From a virus: 55,041 bases of DNA. Positions 15,600-33,203 of this stretch are shown one piece after another. The DNA lies in the IMG/VR virus record IMGVR_UViG_3300045049_000313, positions 1 through 55,041 of that record. One strand, given 5' to 3'. The notes beneath the pieces are model-generated. The model did not search any database. It saw only the letters and a list, made by a program, of their open reading frames with translations, and was not told the DNA's origin. A program made the position numbers and the translations under genes. The first letter of the stretch is position 1. Each line of letters starts with the position of its first letter.

Positions 15600-16760
15600 G
15601 TGTGGGGGAGCGGGTATAGGAAGGCTGGAAAAACATGCACATCGTGCACAGCTAATAAACCTCATAAAATTTTAAAAGAAACTTTTAATGTGGATAATCC
15701 CTTCAAATCACCCGCTATACTCAGCTTTTGCCCCGGAATACTTGGCATCGAAAGAGGACTTAAACGAGCTGGAGTGCATCCCCGTGTCATGGCCTACGTG
15801 GAAATCGAAGCCTTCATCATTGCAAACCTGGTTGCGGGCATGGAAGCGGGTCTATTAGATCCCGCACCTATTTGGACGGATGCTAAAACCTTCGATGCAC
15901 GCCTTTTTTGTGGAAAAATACATGGCATCATTGGCGGTTATCCATGCACACCATTCAGTTTGGCCGGAACTCGATCAGGAGAAGACCATCCCGGACACAT
16001 TTACCCGGCTATATCAAGAGCAATCGAGGCAACAAAGCCTATTTGGTGCTTCTTCGAAAATGTCGACGATCATCTGTCATTGGGATTCGATACTGTTTAC
16101 AAAGACCTACAAAGAATGGGTTATAAGGTTGAGGCAGGAATATACTCAGCGGAGGAAGTTGGCGCGCCTCATGAGAGAGAACGATTGTTCATCCTTGCGG
16201 TGGCCAACTGCTACAGCAATGGATACGGAACAGGAACCGGAAGAATTAATGAAACGAGCGGCGAGACTAAAGGAAAAACACAACGGGAAAAATGGAACAA
16301 CTTACTCCGGCAATGGATGTGGGATGTCATTGGGAACGGCGGTGAAAAATTGGGCAACTCCAACCTGTCCAAATGGCGGCAGAACGTTACCACCGGGCAC
16401 AAGCGAAACCGGGATAACGCCGAATGGAAAGAAGCGACAGGTGGATTTAAATCATCAGGTGAAAAATCTCTGGCCAACGACGGCGGCCAGAGATTGGAAA
16501 TCGGGCGAGAGCAATCAGCATGGCAAGAACTGCAGGCCGCTCAACGAGGTAGTATTACTCAGTTCCCATCCCGACCAGGAGAACATCAATACGACTGGGA
16601 AGAACCGCGCACAATTGAATCCGGCGTGGGTTGCACAATTAATGGGTACAACTTTAGAGAAGATATTCTTCGTGCCCTTGGTAATTCAGTCGTGGAGCAA
16701 ACAGCAGAGTTAGCGTTTATCGATCTTTTGAATAAGCATCTTAAAAATATCAAAGTATGA
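15600..16760 (+). CDS. DNA (cytosine-5) methyltransferase
   Basis: The open frame begins at GTG 15600 (386 codons). GTG 15690 (MDNPFKSPAILSFCPGI) is a credible alternative start, since motif I follows at once and the earlier residues look non-conserved. Motifs in order are AILSFCPGILGIERG (I), GGYPCTPFSLAG with the catalytic Cys (IV), WCFFENVDDH (VI), EVGAPHERERLFILA (VIII) and LRALGNSVVEQTAE (X). The region between VIII and X is long and Asn/Gly-rich and should contain the target-recognition part. It would methylate phage DNA against host restriction. A second, long open frame overlaps the C-terminal two-thirds; see 15880-16713. The gene heads a cluster of three methyltransferases. Confidence 0.9.
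   Translation: MWGSGYRKAGKTCTSCTANKPHKILKETFNVDNPFKSPAILSFCPGILGIERGLKRAGVHPRVMAYVEIEAFIIANLVAGMEAGLLDPAPIWTDAKTFDARLFCGKIHGIIGGYPCTPFSLAGTRSGEDHPGHIYPAISRAIEATKPIWCFFENVDDHLSLGFDTVYKDLQRMGYKVEAGIYSAEEVGAPHERERLFILAVANCYSNGYGTGTGRINETSGETKGKTQREKWNNLLRQWMWDVIGNGGEKLGNSNLSKWRQNVTTGHKRNRDNAEWKEATGGFKSSGEKSLANDGGQRLEIGREQSAWQELQAAQRGSITQFPSRPGEHQYDWEEPRTIESGVGCTINGYNFREDILRALGNSVVEQTAELAFIDLLNKHLKNIKV
15880..16713 (+). CDS. Overlapping +1-frame ORF resembling a phage methylase C-terminal protein
   Basis: This frame is shifted by +1 against the cytosine methyltransferase and is open for 277 residues. Its first third looks like a shadow of the methyltransferase frame. From about 16195 it reads RWPTATAMDTEQEPEELMKR, later KRQVDLNHQVKNLWPT, TTAARDWKSGESNQHGKN and CRPLNEVV, and ends AQLNPAWVAQLMGTT and onward. 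From memory these match a widespread phage protein with WPTPTARDxKxG...RPLNEVV...LNPxWVExLMG motifs. The same bases in the main frame encode LANDGGQRLEIG and LRALGNSVVEQTAE, typical of C5 methyltransferases. Either both frames are translated (overprinting) or one family arose from the other by frameshift. No obvious separate start signal is seen near 16195. Confidence 0.4.
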   Translation: MLKPSMHAFFVEKYMASLAVIHAHHSVWPELDQEKTIPDTFTRLYQEQSRQQSLFGASSKMSTIICHWDSILFTKTYKEWVIRLRQEYTQRRKLARLMRENDCSSLRWPTATAMDTEQEPEELMKRAARLKEKHNGKNGTTYSGNGCGMSLGTAVKNWATPTCPNGGRTLPPGTSETGITPNGKKRQVDLNHQVKNLWPTTAARDWKSGESNQHGKNCRPLNEVVLLSSHPDQENINTTGKNRAQLNPAWVAQLMGTTLEKIFFVPLVIQSWSKQQS

Positions 16761-17005
16761 TCCTAAAAGACCTTGAACCCGGCGACAAGTTCGTGCACGC
16801 GAACAGTAAGGATAAGACGCCGAAACAATTTATTGTAAAAGGCAATTGTCTTTTTAACAGCGGTCATGGTAGTTCGACGCGGTTATGTATTGAGCTTAAA
16901 ACGGGGGCGATAGTGGGTAAGTCCTGCCGGCTGGAAGTGGTTAAGGTTGGCGAAAGCATTCATAAGCAAACATTTTTGGATAAAGTGAAAACTACGAAAC
17001 CATGA
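16757..17005 (+). CDS. Hypothetical protein, 82 residues
   Basis: Starts in an ATGA overlap with the methyltransferase stop. MILKDLEPGDKFVHANSKDK resembles small beta-barrel proteins that begin kl.dLkpGdkF, a pattern common in phage accessory proteins. It is basic and compact, with VVKVGESIHKQTFLDKV at the end. It is coupled to the next gene by four bases. The function is unknown. Confidence 0.55.
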   Translation: MILKDLEPGDKFVHANSKDKTPKQFIVKGNCLFNSGHGSSTRLCIELKTGAIVGKSCRLEVVKVGESIHKQTFLDKVKTTKP

Positions 17006-17292
17006 ATACAAAAAAGACCATCCTGACCAAAGAGCAGGAGAAATTTATAGATGAAAACTGGCAACAATATACCCATGAATCTATCGCTGTAGGGATAGGA
17101 GTAAGTGTTACGAAAGTCTCTAATTACTGCGCTGAAAAAGGATACAAGAAAATAAGAAAGCAGATGGTAAGAATCGAAAAGAAGATCGTTAACCATGGTC
17201 CCGAAAAGAAACATATCAAGCGTCCACCTGCAGTCTACAGCAACCGTTCCCATGAGGAAGTATTGAATTACTACGAAAATCTAATAGTGTAA
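17002..17292 (+). CDS. Small HTH-like protein
   Basis: A 96-residue basic protein. KEQEKFIDENWQQYTHESIA followed by VGIGVSVTKVSNYCAEKGYK fits a helix-turn-helix of the kind that recognises targets in recombinases or Myb-like phage proteins: helix, turn at G-V-S, recognition helix. The C-terminal half is lysine-rich. It ends one base before the adenine methyltransferase gene and probably belongs to the same transcript. DNA binding is inferred. Confidence 0.6.
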   Translation: MNTKKTILTKEQEKFIDENWQQYTHESIAVGIGVSVTKVSNYCAEKGYKKIRKQMVRIEKKIVNHGPEKKHIKRPPAVYSNRSHEEVLNYYENLIV

Positions 17293-18144
17293 ATGTCCCG
17301 TCAACCAAAAATAAAAAGGCCTGTGCTCAGATATCATGGCGGTAAATTTTTACTTGCGAAATGGATTATTTCACATTTTCCAAAGCATCGTACTTATGTT
17401 GAATGTTTTGGAGGAGGCGGTTCGGTTCTTATGCAGAAGCCAAGATCATACGCCGAAATATACAACGATAAATGGGATACAGTTGTGAATGTTTTTGAAG
17501 TCTTGAGAAATCCTATTACCGCAAAAGAACTTGAACGGATAATTAGACTGACGCCATTTTCAAGAACCGAATTTAATAAATGTGGAGAAATCGAATTAGC
17601 GAAAGTCACAGATCCAATTGAGAAAGCACGTCGCACTATACTGAGATCATTTGCGGGATTCGGAAGTGCTTCGACAAATGCAAAATATTCGACAGGCTTT
17701 CGAGCTAATTCAAACAGGTCAGGAACAACGCCGGCGCACGATTGGGTAAACTATTCGGATAACATTACATCTTTTGTGGAAAGATTGAAAGGTGTCGTAA
17801 TCGAGAATAAAGACTACCGAGATGTAATTGCTCAGCACGACAGCTCTGAAACCCTGATTTACTTAGACCCGCCTTACGTCCATAGCACGAGAAACATGTT
17901 AAGAGGAAATGCAACTTATGCCTGGGAAATGACTGATCAAGATCACATTGAAATGGCTGAAATATTAAGTAAAGTAAAAGGCATGGCGATCATTTCGGGG
18001 TATGACTGCGAGCTGTATAAATCACTTTTCTCCGACTGGTTAAAAATTCAAAGGAAAACCTTTGGCGATGGCGCCGTAGAAAGAACAGAGTGTCTATGGC
18101 TGAACGACAGAGCAGGTAAAAATTTAAACAGACAATTATTTTAA
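17293..18144 (+). CDS. dam: DNA N6-adenine methyltransferase, D12/Dam class
   Basis: A 283-residue class D12 (Dam-type) methyltransferase. LRYHGGKFLLAKWIISHFP (about 12-30) and YVECFGGGGSVLMQKP (about 34-49) form the SAM-binding motifs, and TLIYLDPPYVHS (about 188-199) carries the catalytic DPPY. KVKGMAIISGYDCELYKSLF and EGWL-like ERTECLWLN close the fold. It methylates adenine in a short site, usually GATC-like for this class, though the specificity cannot be read from sequence. It is the second methyltransferase of the cluster and should help hide phage DNA from restriction. Length is normal. Confidence 0.92.
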   Translation: MSRQPKIKRPVLRYHGGKFLLAKWIISHFPKHRTYVECFGGGGSVLMQKPRSYAEIYNDKWDTVVNVFEVLRNPITAKELERIIRLTPFSRTEFNKCGEIELAKVTDPIEKARRTILRSFAGFGSASTNAKYSTGFRANSNRSGTTPAHDWVNYSDNITSFVERLKGVVIENKDYRDVIAQHDSSETLIYLDPPYVHSTRNMLRGNATYAWEMTDQDHIEMAEILSKVKGMAIISGYDCELYKSLFSDWLKIQRKTFGDGAVERTECLWLNDRAGKNLNRQLF

Positions 18145-18160
18145 ACGAAAATCTGGAAGT

Positions 18161-18640
18161 ATGATACGCACAAAGGCGATGATAAAAGCAAGGCCCGTTA
18201 CCCAGAAAGATAAATGGGAAACGCCCGATCGTATTTATGCCCCTCTTAACAAAGAGTTCAATTTCACATTAGATCCCTGCTGTGAACCCGAAACCGCTAA
18301 ATGTCCAAAGTATTATACGCTTGAAGATGATGGCCTTTCAAAAGACTGGCAGGGCGAAATAGTTTTCTGCAATCCACCTTATTCAAACGGAAATATTGAT
18401 CTATGGATGGAAAAATGCTATACAGAATCATTGAAGCCAAACACAACAGTTGTAGCCCTTGTAGCGGTATCTACATCAGCTAATTGGTGGCATAATTGGG
18501 TAATTAATAAATGTCAGATAAGATTCATTGAGCGCCGTGTCAAGTTTGTAGGCGCGCCTTATGATGCAACGTTTAGCAGTGCAATACTTGTTTTTGGCCG
18601 CAGGGGAATCACATCATTCAAACAAAATAAAAACTCATGA
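18161..18640 (+). CDS. Phage-type DNA N-6-adenine methyltransferase
   Basis: A 159-residue enzyme of the small phage Dam family (PF05869 type). The family hallmarks are clear: KDKWETPDRIYAPLNKEFNF, TLDPCCEPETAKCPKYYT, a GLSKDWQGEIVFCNPPYSNG segment holding the catalytic NPPY (about 73-76), and a C-terminal strand ATFSSAILVFG. ATG 18161 gives MIRTKAMIKARP; ATG 18179 (MIKARPVTQKDKWE) may be the true start. The family methylates adenines broadly and protects temperate phages. It overlaps the next small membrane gene by four bases. Confidence 0.92.
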   Translation: MIRTKAMIKARPVTQKDKWETPDRIYAPLNKEFNFTLDPCCEPETAKCPKYYTLEDDGLSKDWQGEIVFCNPPYSNGNIDLWMEKCYTESLKPNTTVVALVAVSTSANWWHNWVINKCQIRFIERRVKFVGAPYDATFSSAILVFGRRGITSFKQNKNS

Positions 18641-25064: not shown

Positions 25065-25306
25065 GTTGTACAAAAAATATAAAACGGTTTCTGTTTTGGA
25101 AATACGAAGGAGGTCATGATTTTAAAGTTATAAAGTTTGGACGCTTTATAGTAAATGCTCGAACAGATTCATATTTCGTTACGCGATTTGAATGTAAACA
25201 TTGTGGGGTTCAGCATGTGCGACATTTCGTTAGCGAGAGTGAATTATTGAGAAAGGGAGTACCAATTGAAACTATTGCCAAGAATCGTTATATAGAATTT
25301 ACATGA
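25061..25306 (+). CDS. Small zinc-finger-like protein, 81 residues
   Basis: ATG 25061 overlaps the previous stop. FECKHCGVQHVRHFVSESEL contains a C-x-x-C...H pattern, and KRFLFWKYEGGHDF precedes a beta-rich middle. Short proteins with such a knuckle next to glycosyltransferases are not known to me as a family. It is coupled to the glycosyltransferase gene by four bases. Confidence 0.5.
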   Translation: MSCTKNIKRFLFWKYEGGHDFKVIKFGRFIVNARTDSYFVTRFECKHCGVQHVRHFVSESELLRKGVPIETIAKNRYIEFT

Positions 25307-26310
25307 GAATAATCGCCTTTGTCAACGCCAACAGCGGCCCCGCCTATCATCGTATCATCATGCCTCTAATGTTGATGCGGGATACCGATGTTTACATAAC
25401 CAATGACCTAAAGGTCGAAGACTTCGAAAAAGGCTGCGATATTTTCATGTACAACCGCATACTTCCCGATCACGCTTTACCGATTATCAAAGAGCTGAAA
25501 TATCGGTATGAGTTCAAGATATGTGTTGATCTGGACGATTACTGGGAGATTGACGAACACCATGTGCTTTACCAGCACTATCTTGATATTGGCTTTGCAG
25601 CGAAACAGATACAGCAGATCAAAGATGCGGATATTGTTACCGTCACTCATTCCCGCCTTGCAGAAGAAGTATTGCCATACAACAAGAACGTTCATGTGTG
25701 CCCCAATGCCATACCAAAGCAAGGACAGTTTGATATTGAGCGCCAACCTTATCACCTTACCCGGTTGTTCTGGCAAGGCAGCGATACGCATAGGGCCGAC
25801 ATTAACCTGCTGCGCGGGCCGATAAATGCATTGGCGCCAATGGCCGGCAAGATCAAAATGGTAATGGCAGGCTTTGCGCAGGATCACGAAGATTGGTATC
25901 ATATGGCTAAGGATTATACCGCTGACTTCAAACATCAGTATAAATTGATTGAGGCAACGAAGATTACTGAATACTATGCGGCTTATGCCCATGCAGACAT
26001 TTGCCTTGTGCCGCTGGTTAATTCAAGATTCAACCGCCATAAATCCAATCTGAAGATATTGGAAGCAGCTAACCTGGGACTGCCGGTGATAGTGTCGGAA
26101 GTGCATCCTTATCTCGATCTACCAGTTCTATACTGCAGTAAGCCGTCTGATTGGATCAAGCATATCAAACGATTGGTTGAGAGCAGGAAAAGGCAGAAGG
26201 AGGCGGGTGCGCAACTGGCTGAGTATGTAGCTGAACATTTCAACTTCAACCGGATTAATGCAATGAGGAAACAGATTTTTGAATATGAGACTAAAAAAGT
26301 AATAGCATGA
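25303..26310 (+). CDS. GT-B fold glycosyltransferase, family 4-like
   Basis: A 335-residue glycosyltransferase with two Rossmann-like halves. MRIIAFVNANSGPAYHRII gives the N-terminal strand and acceptor-site His, CVDLDDYWEI lies in the first half, and VTVTHSRLAEEVLPYNKNVH with VCPNAIP matches the hinge. The donor domain has TRLFWQGSDTHRADI and NLKILEAANLGLPVIVSEVH, where the E-A-x-x-x-G-x-P segment contacts the nucleotide sugar. It probably transfers a sugar to a phage or host surface acceptor. Together with 27092 and 27864 it forms a glycosylation cassette set between the two terminase subunit genes. Confidence 0.82.
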   Translation: MRIIAFVNANSGPAYHRIIMPLMLMRDTDVYITNDLKVEDFEKGCDIFMYNRILPDHALPIIKELKYRYEFKICVDLDDYWEIDEHHVLYQHYLDIGFAAKQIQQIKDADIVTVTHSRLAEEVLPYNKNVHVCPNAIPKQGQFDIERQPYHLTRLFWQGSDTHRADINLLRGPINALAPMAGKIKMVMAGFAQDHEDWYHMAKDYTADFKHQYKLIEATKITEYYAAYAHADICLVPLVNSRFNRHKSNLKILEAANLGLPVIVSEVHPYLDLPVLYCSKPSDWIKHIKRLVESRKRQKEAGAQLAEYVAEHFNFNRINAMRKQIFEYETKKVIA

Positions 26311-26513
26311 CAGCGGAAAATTTAATCAAGGGCCTTCAGATAATTGAGAAAAGCCGACCCTTAGAAATGTCCGGATATCACATTCGAGCAGATCATGACG
26401 AAATATGGGCGGGTGATTTGTGCTGGCCAATGCCTCCCGGTGATGCTGGGCAGCTTGAATTTTTGGGGTGGGAACGGGATGAAAATGCAAACGGATGGAG
26501 GGCAACCGTATGA
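26307..26513 (+). CDS. Hypothetical protein, 68 residues
   Basis: IRADHDEIWAGDLCWPMPPG followed by QLEFLGWERDENANGWRA resembles small phage proteins with a D-x-i-w-a........L..lGW......W motif (a strand-turn-strand with conserved Trp). It is coupled to genes on both sides by ATGA overlaps. Function unknown. Confidence 0.55.
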   Translation: MTAENLIKGLQIIEKSRPLEMSGYHIRADHDEIWAGDLCWPMPPGDAGQLEFLGWERDENANGWRATV

Positions 26514-26842
26514 CACTATCCCCCGAAGACATACAATTCTTAAATGATAATCGAACGCATCACGAAACCTTAACGAAGGCTTTTTACATGCGCAGCCTAT
26601 CCGGTGAAGTGCGTTCCCGCATGCAGGAGATCATCGGTAAGTATTGGCAGGCTGGCTATACTACTGATCTATGGTGTGGACCTTGCGTATCAGATATGGT
26701 GCTGAAGTTATACCGGCATTATGACGAATGGCTGGAAAAACAAAAGCAGGAACCGCCAGCGGATGCTAAAGAGTCTGAGCCGCCGAAGACCGAACCTATC
26801 AAAGCCTCATTCCCTTCACATAAAAAACATCATCGACGATAA
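26510..26842 (+). CDS. Hypothetical protein, 110 residues
   Basis: ATG 26510 overlaps the preceding stop. The helical core (EIIGKYWQAGYTTDLWCGPC, then VSDMVLKLYRHYDEWLEKQK) is typical of a recurrent Bacteroidetes phage protein with a C-x-x-C; the C-terminal 35 residues are Pro/Lys/His-rich and disordered. No function known. Confidence 0.55.
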   Translation: MTLSPEDIQFLNDNRTHHETLTKAFYMRSLSGEVRSRMQEIIGKYWQAGYTTDLWCGPCVSDMVLKLYRHYDEWLEKQKQEPPADAKESEPPKTEPIKASFPSHKKHHRR

Positions 26843-26844
26843 AA

Positions 26845-27090
26845 ATGCGGCCGCAGCAAAATAATATCCATGTTGGCTTAAAATTTACCTCTTGCCATTT
26901 CAGCGACGATGCTGAGATAGTTGCCGTTAGAGAACAGAACAATGAAGTTGATGTGAAGTTGATCAGTTCGCAAGGCCATGCCCGGATTGAAACCGGTTGG
27001 AACCTGCAACATACCCGATGGGGTTTCGAGCGCGGCGAGTATAAATCTGTCGATCCCGAAAAAGAAAAAGTAAATATTTCAATTATTTGA
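26845..27090 (+). CDS. Hypothetical beta-rich protein, 81 residues
   Basis: The sequence (NIHVGLKFTSCHFSDDAEIV, then AVREQNNEVDVKLISSQGHA) alternates as in a small beta-barrel. RWGFERGEYKSVDPEK follows. It precedes the GT-A glycosyltransferase by one base. No family recognised. Confidence 0.5.
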   Translation: MRPQQNNIHVGLKFTSCHFSDDAEIVAVREQNNEVDVKLISSQGHARIETGWNLQHTRWGFERGEYKSVDPEKEKVNISII

Positions 27091-27091
27091 T

Positions 27092-27871
27092 ATGGCACTT
27101 ATAGGCATGGCAATTTACTGTACCGAGGAAAATAAGAAGGATAAATATCTATTTAAGACATTATCGAGCATTGCGCGCACTGTAAATATTAAGCGTCACA
27201 GATTGATGTTGTCGGTAAATGGCGGTACCTCAGAAACGCAAAACATAATTCATGGTTGGTTGAGTAATGGCCTCGTAAGCCAAATTTTCTGGAATGCCGA
27301 AAATCTTGGCACAGCCGGAGCCATTAATAAAATTATTGCAAGGCGTGACCAAAATGAGCATGTGATTAAGATCGATGACGATATAGCTATTCACAACTCC
27401 GGCTGGGCTGACCTTATGGAAGAATGTGTAAGCGTTGATCCGACCATTGGCATAATCGGATTGAAGCGCAAAGATCTAATTCAAACACCGTGGCACCCCG
27501 ACCCGCAATACAGGAGCGAATTGATATTACTACCGCATACCCCAGGCCATAAATGGTTGACGGTGGAACGAACGCCCGATATTATTGGGACGTGTACGTT
27601 GTTCAATAGCGCACTGCTTGATAAGATAGGTTTCAGCAGGCAGCCTGGAAAGTATGGGTTTGAAGATAACCTGATGTGTCACCGGTCGCACCTTGCTGGC
27701 TTTTACAACTGTTTCCTTAATCATATCGATATTGACCATATCGATGAAGGGGCACCAGCGTATAACGAATGGAAGGCAAAGCATTCGGCAGAATTTTTTC
27801 CTGAATACCATAAGTTGGTGCATGATATGATAGCAGGGCGTGAACCAATTTATTATAACCCATATGTTTAA
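27092..27871 (+). CDS. GT-A fold glycosyltransferase, family 2-like
   Basis: A 259-residue glycosyltransferase. MALIGMAIYCTEENKKDKYL opens the nucleotide-binding half, RLMLSVNGGTSETQNII follows, and HVIKIDDDIAIHNSGW (about 90-105) carries the D-x-D metal-binding motif as DDD. IIGTCTLFNSALLDKIGF and KYGFEDNLMCHRSHLAGF (the ED of the catalytic-base segment) complete the family 2 pattern. It is therefore expected to be active. The target could be virion proteins or the host surface. Its stop overlaps the start of the next glycosyltransferase gene. Confidence 0.85.
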   Translation: MALIGMAIYCTEENKKDKYLFKTLSSIARTVNIKRHRLMLSVNGGTSETQNIIHGWLSNGLVSQIFWNAENLGTAGAINKIIARRDQNEHVIKIDDDIAIHNSGWADLMEECVSVDPTIGIIGLKRKDLIQTPWHPDPQYRSELILLPHTPGHKWLTVERTPDIIGTCTLFNSALLDKIGFSRQPGKYGFEDNLMCHRSHLAGFYNCFLNHIDIDHIDEGAPAYNEWKAKHSAEFFPEYHKLVHDMIAGREPIYYNPYV

Positions 27872-28349
27872 ATGGAATCATGATCCGAACGGCAAAACAT
27901 ATTCATCATTAAGTGAATTTTTCAGCCCCATGAAGATTAAAGTCATAACCACAACCTCTGACCTCTCAAAATGCTTTGAGCTTCGCCGCTCACTGATCTA
28001 CCATGGCTACGACTTCCATTTCATTGAACATAAGTGGACGGGTTTTCTGGACAAGATCCACGAAACCTACAAATACCTGAAGTCATTGGAAGGCTATACG
28101 CACTTCCTTTATACCGACGCCTGGGATACTTTTGCAGTTGGAAGTCCATTGGATTTATCATTGGTTATGCGAAATGGAATATCGATCTCAGCAGAACGCG
28201 CATGTTATCCATATCCGGAACTTGAAAGTAAATATCCGTTAAACGATTCACCGTGGCATTTTGTAAACGGCGGTGGCTGGTGCGGTGAGATAAGGGCCTT
28301 CCTTCGACTATACGAAGATCAGCCACCCACAACTGAGTTGAATGATTAG
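27864..28349 (+). CDS. Glycosyltransferase, N-terminal part before an in-frame amber stop
   Basis: From ATG 27864 (or ATG 27930, MKIKVITTTSDLSKCFELRR) this frame encodes a glycosyltransferase fold like the PLOD-type enzymes: YTHFLYTDAWDTFAVG holds the D-x-w-D metal site and FVNGGGWCGEIRAFLRLYED the acceptor region. The frame stops at TAG 28347, after ELND. The same frame is open immediately after, with VWLTNQFLKLHNEGW and STPLFIHGNGHTP, which look like the missing C-terminal part of the same domain. A C-to-T change of CAG (Gln) to TAG would explain the break. Premature truncation, readthrough or a sequencing error are possible. Confidence 0.7.
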   Translation: MFKWNHDPNGKTYSSLSEFFSPMKIKVITTTSDLSKCFELRRSLIYHGYDFHFIEHKWTGFLDKIHETYKYLKSLEGYTHFLYTDAWDTFAVGSPLDLSLVMRNGISISAERACYPYPELESKYPLNDSPWHFVNGGGWCGEIRAFLRLYEDQPPTTELND

Positions 28350-29255
28350 GTTTGGTTGACCAATCAGTTCTTGAAACTTCATAATGAAGGATGGTTAAAG
28401 CTGGACTATGTCTGTGAGATATTCCAGACATTAGGCTTCTGCCCGGATAGTGATTTTGATATGAAAGGCCGATTCACGAATACCGTTACCAAATCAACGC
28501 CCTTATTCATCCATGGCAACGGCCATACCCCAATGGGTAAGATTTATGAACTATTGCCCAAAACCATGAACAGCATAAAAGAAGTTCGGAGCATTTGGCA
28601 GGACACGCCCGAAAGCCACAAGACCATTAACGAATACTTTACCAGGCAGGTAAACGCTAATCCAAAACTCAAAGCCTACCGCGATTGGATCGAGGAAAAG
28701 GTTTTCGGGTTCGGTGAACGCTCATTCTTATGGATGTGGAAGCTGATTATTGACGATATCCCTGCGCCTGAGTTTTTGGAGATAGGTGTGTTTCGCGGCC
28801 AAATATTGGGGCTTATCCGCATGCTCTCGCCAAAGGCCAGCATTACCGGTATCACCCCACTGGATAGCACCGGCGGCCACTGGGAAAGCAATTACGCGGA
28901 AGATATTGAGCTGCTGCATCAAACATTCAAACTGAAACAACCAACGATTATAAAGGGCCTCAGCACGGATGCAGAAGTATTGGAGCAGGTCAGTAAGAAG
29001 ATGTACGATATTATCTATATCGACGGCGGCCATAGTTACGAGGTGGCGCGGCATGATGTATACCGGTATTCTTCATTTGTTAAAGTGGGCGGTTACCTGG
29101 TTATCGATGACGCTGGCTGCAAGTTCAATATGCCCGAAGGATATTTCAAAGGTATCGAGGAAGTCAGCCGGGCGGTTGATGAACTATTACCGAATGAGTA
29201 TTATGCGGAGGTGTTTAATGTGGTGCACAACAGGATTTTCAAACGAATAAAATAA
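28350..29255 (+). CDS. Continuation of the split glycosyltransferase fused to a class I methyltransferase-like domain
   Basis: This part is in the same frame as 27864-28349, directly after the TAG. The first 60 residues complete the glycosyltransferase (TKSTPLFIHGNGHTPMGK). From about 120 a SAM-dependent methyltransferase or hydroxylase-like Rossmann domain follows: EFLEIGVFRGQILGLIRM (motif I), STGGHWESNY, YDIIYIDGGHSYEVARHD and GGYLVIDDAGC. The pattern resembles CmcI/macrocin O-methyltransferase-type enzymes. Independent translation would need a start after the stop; the first in-frame ATG is at 28461 and cuts off the glycosyltransferase end. The whole thus looks like one bifunctional glycan-modifying protein. 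Confidence 0.7.
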   Translation, partial: VWLTNQFLKLHNEGWLKLDYVCEIFQTLGFCPDSDFDMKGRFTNTVTKSTPLFIHGNGHTPMGKIYELLPKTMNSIKEVRSIWQDTPESHKTINEYFTRQVNANPKLKAYRDWIEEKVFGFGERSFLWMWKLIIDDIPAPEFLEIGVFRGQILGLIRMLSPKASITGITPLDSTGGHWESNYAEDIELLHQTFKLKQPTIIKGLSTDAEVLEQVSKKMYDIIYIDGGHSYEVARHDVYRYSSFVKVGGYLVIDDAGCKFNMPEGYFKGIEEVSRAVDELLPNEYYAEVFNVVHNRIFKRIK

Positions 29256-31084: not shown

Positions 31085-31203
31085 CCCTTTCCTCCTGCAT
31101 GGCGATAACCTCAACTGGTATTCTTGTCTACTTAGGACATAAAGGCCAGTTATATGAGATACTTGGCGGGAAGGATGGGCAATTAAATATGATTGAATTA
31201 TGA
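31081..31203 (+). CDS. Hypothetical protein, 40 residues
   Basis: The open frame from ATG 31081 to TGA 31201 (MTLSSCMAITSTGILVYLGH) overlaps both neighbours by four bases. Beta-strands are likely (GILVYLGHKGQLYEILGG). Tight coupling on both sides supports translation. No family recognised. Confidence 0.5.
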   Translation: MTLSSCMAITSTGILVYLGHKGQLYEILGGKDGQLNMIEL

Positions 31204-31811
31204 GCATCTCCAAAGCACAAGCCGCTGCACTTGCTGAAGGTTTTCTCGATAATATCGGGGAAGGCAAAGAAGGTATGCCGCCACGTAATACGCTCACTGA
31301 ATTATTCCTGCTGGCCGGGGAACTCATTGAAGACGCTCAAAACAATCTGAATAAATCCAACCATGTAGCCACCGGCAAATTATCAGAATCATTAATTGCC
31401 GACGATCCCACTCAAAATGCTAAAACTGTTGCCATTGACGTGCTGATGAATTTCTACGGCGCCTTCATAAACAAGGGCGTAAAAGGAACGAGAGGCGGTT
31501 CCAGCACAGCTGGATATAGTTTCCGCAATGAAGTCGTCTCCCGGAAGATGTACAAGGCTATTGCCGACTGGATCGAAAACGCAAAGATCAGCACCCGGAC
31601 CGTAAAGAAATATAAGGGCTATGGCAAACATGAGACAAGACGTAAATCAATAGCTCAATACGATAATACCTATGCCGTTGCCCGGTCTATCAAACAGCAC
31701 GGTCTTAAGCCATCAGGTTTCATGGACAAGGCCGTTACTACCACAAAAAACAAAGTATCCGAACGACTTGGCACAGCCCTACGCATTGATATTATCGACA
31801 GCCTGAAATAA
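31200..31811 (+). CDS. Head-tail connector or tail-completion protein, HK97 gp10-like
   Basis: A 203-residue structural protein. HVATGKLSESLIADDPTQNA, then VDVLMNFYGAFINKGVKGTR-like FYGAFINKGVKG, matches the gp10/neck-protein pattern (aTGrLk.Si......ygY..e.GtkG). The C-terminal half (IADWIENAKISTRTVKKYKG, AVARSIKQHGLKPSGFMDKA) is basic and resembles the family's DNA- or tail-facing tail. It should close or terminate the neck between head and tail. It lies just before the structured RNA and the tail-tip genes. Confidence 0.72.
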   Translation: MSISKAQAAALAEGFLDNIGEGKEGMPPRNTLTELFLLAGELIEDAQNNLNKSNHVATGKLSESLIADDPTQNAKTVAIDVLMNFYGAFINKGVKGTRGGSSTAGYSFRNEVVSRKMYKAIADWIENAKISTRTVKKYKGYGKHETRRKSIAQYDNTYAVARSIKQHGLKPSGFMDKAVTTTKNKVSERLGTALRIDIIDSLK

Positions 31812-31815
31812 AAAC

Positions 31816-31938
31816 ATTCAAGATGGACGAGGAAGCGCCTAACAGTTAAAGTCTGAAAGTCGAAAGGCAAAGCTACACGGCATGGCGCTGATGCCGGAGG
31901 AGTAGCGTAACGCGGGGTTAGAATCCCTGCTCTTGAAT
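31816..31938 (+). ncRNA. Candidate structured RNA, 123 nt, pseudoknotted, tRNA-like ends
   Basis: Between the connector gene and the tail genes lies a tightly foldable RNA. The ends pair perfectly: ATTCAAGA (31816-31823) with TCTTGAAT (31931-31938). Stacked directly on this is a stem-loop like a T arm, GCGGGG-TTAGAAT-CCCTGC (31912-31930, 7-base loop). A central two-part stem is GCTAC/GTAGC (31872-31876 with 31902-31906) plus CGGCAT/ATGCCG (31878-31883 with 31891-31896), with a 7-base loop GGCGCTG. Six of those loop bases (GGCGCT, 31884-31889) can pair with AGCGCC at 31834-31839, giving a pseudoknot. A strong terminator follows at once. No known family is recognised. It is not a standard tRNA (too long, no D arm). 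Confidence 0.7.
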
Positions 31939-31939
31939 T

Positions 31940-31962
31940 AACCGGAGAAATCCGGTTTTTTT
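31940..31962 (+). terminator. Intrinsic terminator after the structured RNA
   Basis: AACCGG (31940-31945) pairs with CCGGTT (31952-31957) and is followed by a run of seven T (31956-31962). It starts two bases after the closing stem of the structured RNA and ends 17 bases before the ATG of the next tail gene. Confidence 0.85.
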
Positions 31963-31979
31963 ATTGCCAAAAACAAACC

Positions 31980-33203
31980 ATGCCTTTTAATATTTATGGC
32001 ATGGCACTCACACTTATTTATTCCCCTGGTACTTACTTCAGCGCCCACAGCGACCTGATATTTACGCTCTTGGAAGATACCAAGCCTTTTAATTCAACGA
32101 CTTACCCGAATTATAAATATGTCTGTGATGTGTATATGTATGGGGCACTGCAGGCCAGACTACAGGCATTCCCCCGCCCGGATGATAAGATAGGCATTTT
32201 CAATATCGGAAATGTGGTAAGGAATTACCTGCTGATGCAATTCCTGCCGGCAGCCAATAATTTGCGAGCCCAGAAGGTAGGAGAAAACGCCTTTTACGTA
32301 AATGTCCAGTGCAAGTTCGGGGAAGAATACGGATTTGTGACTTACCCGAATCTGATCGTAGATACGCAGAAGACATACTTTAATCATTATAATACCCGTC
32401 AGGCCGGCACGCTTACCGTCCTTTCTTCAGTTATCGACAAGGCCATGACGGTACGACCATATGCCACACCTGTCTATCAGGGTTCAAAATATTGCTTTGT
32501 GCCATTCCTTCCATCCGATGACACAACGATCAACCTGGTTATTAACGCCTATAACGGCTCTACGCTGGCCGGTACGACCACCCAGCCATTTACCCCAACA
32601 GCGACAAGCACAAACGAACAGCAGCTTTTTAATGTGTCCCCGGCAGCTATTAACGCAGGGGTGCCCGGATTTATTAACGCGTCAACCACTTATTATACAG
32701 TGAAGTTTGACACGACTAATATCACGGGTGACAGTATTTACCGGTTCAACCTGGTTTGCGAGGCCATGTACGATGTATATACGCTGCACTTTCTCAATAG
32801 ATATGGAGGTTTTGAAAGCCGGGATTTTACCAAAGTTAGTCGTCAATCTCTCGACCCCATCGAAAGAAGTTCTTACGGTTCCAGTGCTGTGCTGATAACC
32901 AACGACGGCCAGCCTCATTATTTTGATTCGACTACAAAAGTTTACCGTGAGCAGAATACTACATATGCTACGACATGGGCTGAAAAGATGACGCTCAATA
33001 CCGATATTCTCACGGATGCGGAATACCAATGGTTGCAGGATCTTATTCTTTCTCCCATGGTTTTTATTGAAATGAATGGCTACTTCTATCCCGTATCGAT
33101 AACGCAAAACAATTACGAACCGAAGAAAGTGATTAACGATGATCTGACCAACCTCACACTTAATATTCAATTCGGAGACAGGTTTAATACGCAATACAGA
33201 TGA
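31980..33203 (+). CDS. Tail tip or baseplate structural protein
   Basis: A 407-residue beta-rich protein (400 if ATG 32001, MALTLIYSPGTYFSAHSDLI, is the start). The order is an N-terminal beta region (IYSPGTYFSAHSDLIFTLLE), a Thr/Asn-rich middle and a C-terminal DREQNTTYA-like fold with VFIEMNGYFYPVSITQNNYE and LTLNIQFGDRFNTQYR. The pattern of short strands and Thr/Ser/Asn content fits a tail-tip or distal-tail-like component of Bacteroidetes siphoviruses. It overlaps the next tail gene by four bases. Exact homology to Dit is not shown. Confidence 0.65.
   Translation: MPFNIYGMALTLIYSPGTYFSAHSDLIFTLLEDTKPFNSTTYPNYKYVCDVYMYGALQARLQAFPRPDDKIGIFNIGNVVRNYLLMQFLPAANNLRAQKVGENAFYVNVQCKFGEEYGFVTYPNLIVDTQKTYFNHYNTRQAGTLTVLSSVIDKAMTVRPYATPVYQGSKYCFVPFLPSDDTTINLVINAYNGSTLAGTTTQPFTPTATSTNEQQLFNVSPAAINAGVPGFINASTTYYTVKFDTTNITGDSIYRFNLVCEAMYDVYTLHFLNRYGGFESRDFTKVSRQSLDPIERSSYGSSAVLITNDGQPHYFDSTTKVYREQNTTYATTWAEKMTLNTDILTDAEYQWLQDLILSPMVFIEMNGYFYPVSITQNNYEPKKVINDDLTNLTLNIQFGDRFNTQYR

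Follow-up and report, generated by a model that had tools for sequence, protein, structure and literature searches.

A previously uncatalogued, tRNA-like phage RNA with a predicted stub hairpin in place of the anticodon arm

Matching base changes in relatives confirm, at the level of sequence, that a gap in an operon of the phage examined here holds a real RNA whose shape has been kept, and we regard the fold itself as close to certain. The RNA belongs to a previously uncatalogued family, tRNA-like in kind, in which the anticodon arm is the only tRNA arm that has been replaced, by a stub hairpin. Since the shape is kept through compensating changes, the RNA has been selected for a role other than codon reading. 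The DNA analysed, referred to throughout as the window, is a whole virus record of 55,041 bases; its genes include terminase, tail-like and replication genes, and a related phage gene is present in a Bacteroidota MAG.

The MFE fold of the window RNA recovers all of the nested helices (closing stem of 8 bp, two-part central stem, T arm, terminator), and 2 of 200 shuffled sequences are as stable (z-score -2.31). Folding of a single sequence is moderate evidence, and covariation in 18 homologues is decisive. A first-pass annotation had described these helices, the TTAGAAT loop of the 6-bp T arm, a pseudoknot strand at 31834-31839 and the T run of the terminator, and every one of these elements lies where it had been placed (Table 1). 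The two pseudoknot strands are a perfect 6-bp match.

Table 1. Features of the RNA and its surroundings in the window
Feature	Position	Strand	Evidence or remark
tRNA-like ncRNA body, family member	31816-31938	+	R3 113 bits; covariation
P1 5' strand, acceptor-like stem	31816-31823	+	pairs with 31931-31938, 8 bp; 8/8 pairs double-changed in homologues
P1 3' strand	31931-31938	+	pairs with 31816-31823; 8/8 pairs double-changed
U8 G9 equivalents	31824-31825	+	directly before D-stem 5' strand
D-stem 5' strand GAC (tRNA 10-12)	31826-31828	+	pairs with 31851-31853; 3/3 pairs covary
D-stem 3' strand GUC (tRNA 23-25)	31851-31853	+	covariation
Pseudoknot strand AGCGCC, enlarged D loop	31834-31839	+	pairs with 31884-31889; 88% of cells paired
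Pseudoknot strand GGCGCU, P4 loop	31884-31889	+	pairs with 31834-31839
G18-U19 equivalent	31845-31846	+	U31846 pairs with T-loop A31920 (tRNA 19-56)
Invariant core UGAAAGUC-GNAA-GGCRAA, in place of anticodon arm	31854-31871	+	alignment A9
Stub hairpin in core, 3-bp GNRA-type	31859-31868 (31859-31861/31866-31868)	+	not noticed in first-pass annotation
Enlarged variable arm	31872-31906	+	P3, P4 and RAGGA bulge
P3	31872-31876/31902-31906	+	5/5 pairs with double changes
P4	31878-31883/31891-31896	+	5/6 pairs with double changes
RAGGA bulge of variable arm	31897-31901	+	sequence
T arm of 6 bp with loop UUAGAAU, directly stacked on P1	31912-31930 (31912-31917/31925-31930)	+	100% of cells paired; 4/6 pairs double-changed
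Intrinsic terminator AACCGGA-GAAA-TCCGGTT and T run	31940-31962 (hairpin 31940-31957)	+	sequence
Candidate promoter TTGGCA-16-TATTAT with TG	31768-31795	+	within 3' end of upstream gene; no excess over chance
Accessory cassette (RNA and terminator)	31810-31975		AAAAACA at both ends; missing in L002

Covariation was assessed in an alignment of 18 rows (A9) that was fitted to R1, a covariance model made from the window sequence alone, and hence leans towards the helices of R1. The search for compensating changes that the first-pass annotation had proposed as its own check found homologues and bears out the fold: 95.2% of paired cells in A9 are standard, double-sided changes occur at 29 of 38 pairs, and there are 157 compensatory cells against 43 after shuffling, with a covariation score of 0.604 against 0.145 (0/500 shuffles); structures slid along the alignment score 0.04-0.11. 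R1 contains neither the D stem nor the pseudoknot nor the 19-56 pair, so their covariation is not built in; the 19-56 pair is in no model. The D stem occurs as GAC/GUC, GCG/CGC, AAC/GUU and GUG/CAC. The pseudoknot occurs as GCGCC/GGCGC, GCACC/GGUGC, GGGCC/GGCCC, GUGCA/UGCAC and CACC/GGUG, with double changes at three pairs among the members having it. The 19-56 pair is standard in all 18 rows (G-C in 6, A-U in 6, U-A in 5, G-U in 1; none broken), and in the other full-length members inspection shows G and C at these positions. The eighth position of P1 is paired in 15 of 18 rows; P1 extends into a longer helix in about half of the 18 members, and the position after it is variable. An outer helix with an internal loop lies beyond P1 in many, not all, members (L073, L074, L087 and similar; 5' CACGCAUGG...CCAGYCGUG 3') and is possibly a processing element.

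Searched against 395 Bacteroidota genomes, R1 gave one convincing match (L012, E = 6.8e-9), a prophage copy in a Bacteroidota genome that adjoins capsid, sheath and baseplate genes on the opposite strand and carries a terminator and, judged by eye, a TACATTTG box just upstream. An 18-mer common to the window and L012 led to L018, L032 and L033 in IMG/VR; a relaxed pattern yielded 58 further loci, 34 of which match R1 at E below 1, mostly strongly; and a core-free pattern gave eight matches, of which seven are real and two new (L103 and L104). R1 and the IMG/VR pattern scans bring the family to about 40 members. The final model, R3, scores all 36 tested members at 38-113 bits, 18 of which also built it, against at most 23 bits for T4 tRNAs; R2 served, together with R1, only for rough filtering. 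Because most members come from core-containing patterns, invariance of the core is partly built in there; the independent checks on it are the core-free scan and L012, for which R1 alone was sufficient. On two overlapping 395-genome surveys R3 returned only the L012 copy and a different RNA, and the family RNA is rare in Bacteroidota chromosomes. Two 17-base exact patterns had zero matches in IMG/VR, and DNA similarity searches with four members found nothing real among annotated phages, plasmids and E. coli genomes. Weak R1 matches at L013-L017 were rejected as chance, most of the core being missing, and thirteen contigs (L019-L031) as coincidence: they have the 18-mer without the rest of the RNA, and they carry GTCTGAAAGTCGTAAGGC in one conserved, protein-coding-looking stretch unrelated to the RNA.

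The different RNA returned by R3 (L102:1501-1628, minus strand; genome G160) resembles tRNA-Leu, with an intact Leu D arm, a T arm, an 8-bp acceptor and a long non-tRNA middle (GGGCAGU...ACUGCC...CCGAAAGAAGGCGAAACAC), and is not called by ARAGORN. At L018:1242-1570 and L032:616-928 (minus strand) a family member is apparently nested in a second, outer tRNA-like RNA, whose 8-bp stem (AUAUGAGG/CCUCAUAU versus AUGUGG/CCACAU) is directly stacked on a 6-bp T-like arm with the loop UGCAAAU; CTAAATGG repeats bound the inner RNA.

The T arm, with its 7-base loop, is stacked on an acceptor-type stem, and the earlier proposal that this arrangement imitates a tRNA is strengthened by the covarying D-loop/T-loop pair, which occurs as three Watson-Crick types. 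The 19-56 contact holds the L shape of tRNA together, and because it is conserved here a tRNA-like L is the natural inference from sequence. It had further been proposed that both the D and the anticodon arms are replaced; this applies to the anticodon arm, but the D arm is kept, and in the window RNA its enlarged loop holds a pseudoknot strand. Many members have the D arm UGGCGGAAUUGRUAGACGC, which we take to be that of a bacterial tRNA-Leu. After the D arm come, in order, UGAAA, the stub hairpin GUC-GNAA-GGC, RAA, P3/P4, GUA and the T arm. The core flanks (UGAAAGUC...GGCRAA) are invariant in A9 apart from N and R, and are unchanged in L103 and L104, which were found without the core and have a 5-bp stub. 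Rather than an anticodon arm with a 7-base loop, the family thus has a stub of 3-5 bp, a GNAA or other short loop and a 5-base linker; rather than an acceptor/T stack of 7 + 5 bp, it has 8 + 6 (or 5 plus a bulge, the T arm often having one bulged base). The variable-arm loop pairs with the D loop in members where the D loop is large. ARAGORN made no tRNA or tmRNA call on the RNA, and Rfam RF00005 was silent. Twelve loci (L044, L045, L052, L056, L059, L064, L071, L080, L084, L087, L090 and L093) form a subtype with a very short T stem, a long outer stem and an extended D stem, resembling 9/3 allo-tRNA geometry, and with an apparent D-loop/P4-loop pairing (UAGCC/GGUUA or UAGCA/UGUUA).

The view that this is a phage ncRNA of no known family also stands. 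Rfam 15 has no family at gathering score anywhere in the window or on the members checked, and permissive scans gave only sub-threshold matches (e.g. SpF41, 20.2 of 52 bits); readings as hammerhead-, twister- or glmS-like short motifs were weighed and set aside. A search of mainly open-access literature without preprints brought up no published description, and an earlier one is possible. Bacterial class II tRNAs (tRNA-Leu) share U8, the D arm (identical in many members), the T arm, the 19-56 pair and a long variable arm, but the family has no normal anticodon arm, an acceptor of at least 8 bp instead of 7, a T stem of 6 bp or 5 plus a bulge, the UGAAAGUC..GGCRAA core and the D-loop pseudoknot. 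In layout it most resembles T4 species 1 RNA, without common sequence: rnaC and rnaD are likewise phage-encoded, stable RNAs of 119-139 nt beside tRNA genes, and rnaC has a T arm on its closing stem. They lack the family core, however, and homology with rnaC was rejected at an R3 score of 16.5 bits, below those of T4's own tRNA-Ser and tRNA-Leu, the best T4 matches at only 19-23 bits. tmRNA, too, has a tRNA-like acceptor and T arm and lacks an anticodon arm, but the family has a paired D stem and no tag reading frame domain, and this identity was rejected for want of an RF00023 match or a tag peptide domain; host G213 has its own tmRNA. Long acceptors (8 bp in bacterial tRNA-Sec, 9/3 in some allo-tRNAs) and a class II arm are shared with tRNA-Sec and allo-tRNAs, and L087 and similar members look 9/3 with a long D stem; these RNAs, with acceptor domains of 8/4, 9/3 or 8/5, possess anticodon arms and decode (PMC7609411), and this identity was also rejected. 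The structured phage and prophage ncRNAs GOLLD and ROOL, of unassigned function and sometimes near tRNAs (PMC12286853), are over 600 nt and not tRNA-like, and their Rfam models have no match here. In its working the RNA would be most like a non-decoding pseudo-tRNA, exemplified by tRNA-Other of Bacillus cereus, which is tRNA-like and not used in translation (PMC3399842); tRNA-Other differs in having a Trp anticodon and in being a tRNA element within a larger RNA.

On balance, we favour the reading that the RNA is a tRNA-derived mimic of tRNA that does not decode but acts in trans, engaging the tRNA-handling machinery of the host as a putative decoy or modulator. A terminator of its own, present in the window and in L012, and an orientation opposite to flanking genes in some members suggest production as a distinct small RNA, which would be trimmed like a pre-tRNA. 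Acting in trans and taking no part in decoding, it would offer a tRNA elbow to the host's tRNA-binding machinery. The tRNA corner, made of the acceptor-like stem on the T arm, the D arm and the D-loop/T-loop docking, is kept, and in many members the pseudoknot locks the enlarged variable arm to the D loop. The invariant UGAAAG/CRAA patch and the RAGGA bulge, located at what would be the junction of the anticodon and variable arms, form a putative specific binding site. From this anatomy, with which the decoy role raised in the first-pass annotation agrees, we infer that the target is a tRNA-handling or tRNA-targeting host factor, acted on during infection; binding of such factors would be the simplest use of a kept elbow and a new invariant patch. 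The RNA is probably excluded from elongation, because it has no normal anticodon loop and because EF-Tu binds an 8-bp acceptor less tightly, by a factor of about 100 in tRNA-Sec (PMC7609411). Against the favoured reading, P1 runs on in about half of the 18 members, an outward extension unlike a mature tRNA, so that processing may differ; many members lie in late or packaging modules, a location that may point to a role in packaging or in cis; and the window RNA is on the operon strand, with no standout promoter.

The RNA might instead be an aminoacyl carrier, charged with an amino acid for use in a non-ribosomal reaction or in tmRNA-like, tagless ribosome rescue. LeuRS and SerRS act independently of the anticodon, and the class II tRNA-like scaffold, Leu-type D arm, large variable arm and preserved acceptor and T arm would suit such a role. 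A regular discriminator/CCA end is not visible, however, because P1 is 8 bp or longer and extends outward in many members, and the base position after P1 varies; we consider this reading unlikely.

The setting of the RNA bears on a role in cis. The gap in the window is flanked by genes for proteins of 203 (31200-31811) and 407 (31980-33203) amino acids, and the RNA lies inside the operon on its coding strand with the terminator directly 3', an arrangement that, together with the attraction of processing enzymes to tRNA-like folds, is consistent with 3'-end protection, a site of processing by RNase P or translational control of the adjoining late gene. In a promoter scan against shuffled sequences no promoter stands out for the RNA (3 sites found, 2.6 expected). 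The nearest relative, L002, whose counterpart of the 203-aa protein is 76% identical, has otherwise matching flanking genes joined by GGTCAAAAACAAACCATG, with neither RNA nor terminator; AAAAACA, present at 31810-31816 and 31969-31975 in the window, occurs there in a single copy, and searches with R1 and R3 did not find the RNA elsewhere in the 54-kb record. The RNA and terminator, being absent between matching genes, therefore behave as what appears to be an accessory cassette, and either insertion or loss is compatible with the sequences. This absence with gene order unchanged, the differing neighbours among members, the frequent opposite orientation of the flanking genes (L012, L096) and the lack of any alternative pairing seen between RNA and terminator make a cis element improbable. 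The window phage also encodes, at 15600-18640 and 25303-29255, a C5 cytosine methylase and two further DNA methyltransferase-like genes, and within these regions, before the terminase, a block containing genes for a glycosyltransferase and for a methyltransferase of the Methyltransf_24 type.

Across the family the RNA is spread over unrelated loci. Terminase genes are nearby in L043, L058, L081, L082 and L085; a minor head gene adjoins it in L032, a capsid gene in L033, portal to tail component genes in L104 and a minor tail gene in L060, and elsewhere the neighbours are clamp (L018), helicase/ParB (L044), DNA polymerase (L059), HNH (L064) and methyltransferase (L080) genes. Late and packaging genes are thus frequent, not universal, and because the neighbours vary the suggestion that the RNA regulates tail genes was dropped. 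Two of the phages also carry an ordinary tRNA gene (Arg, Pro) at a distance of 100-600 bases from the RNA (L077:4037-4123 and L085:2352-2428). The terminase, portal or head genes of eight of these loci (L043, L058, L081, L082, L085, L033, L104 and L032) could point to a packaging or virion RNA like the pRNA of phi29, but L018, L044 and L059 adjoin replication genes, the RNA is dispensable in L002, which has a related tail/neck region, and Rfam, including its phage pRNA family, has no match, so that we judge such a role very unlikely. A functionless decayed tRNA gene or integration-site remnant, which would account for the resemblance to tRNA-Leu and for which there is precedent in the tRNA fragments common beside mobile elements (PMC9897764), is scarcely credible, being already contradicted by the extensive compensatory change, the tertiary covariation and the invariant new core.

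Phage tRNAs are usually read as a supply of codons, and a recurrent RNA that conserves the elbow without an anticodon implies that the tRNA fold is used beyond decoding. We tentatively raise the possibility that such RNAs are tRNAs evolved into effectors that do not decode and instead block, titrate or reprogram some tRNA-dependent process of the host, with the invariant stub core as the putative active surface; if this is true, an example of a target would be a tRNA-sensing or tRNA-cutting defence. The family now has a covariation-backed model and may shed light on long-standing orphans, T4 species 1 RNA among them.
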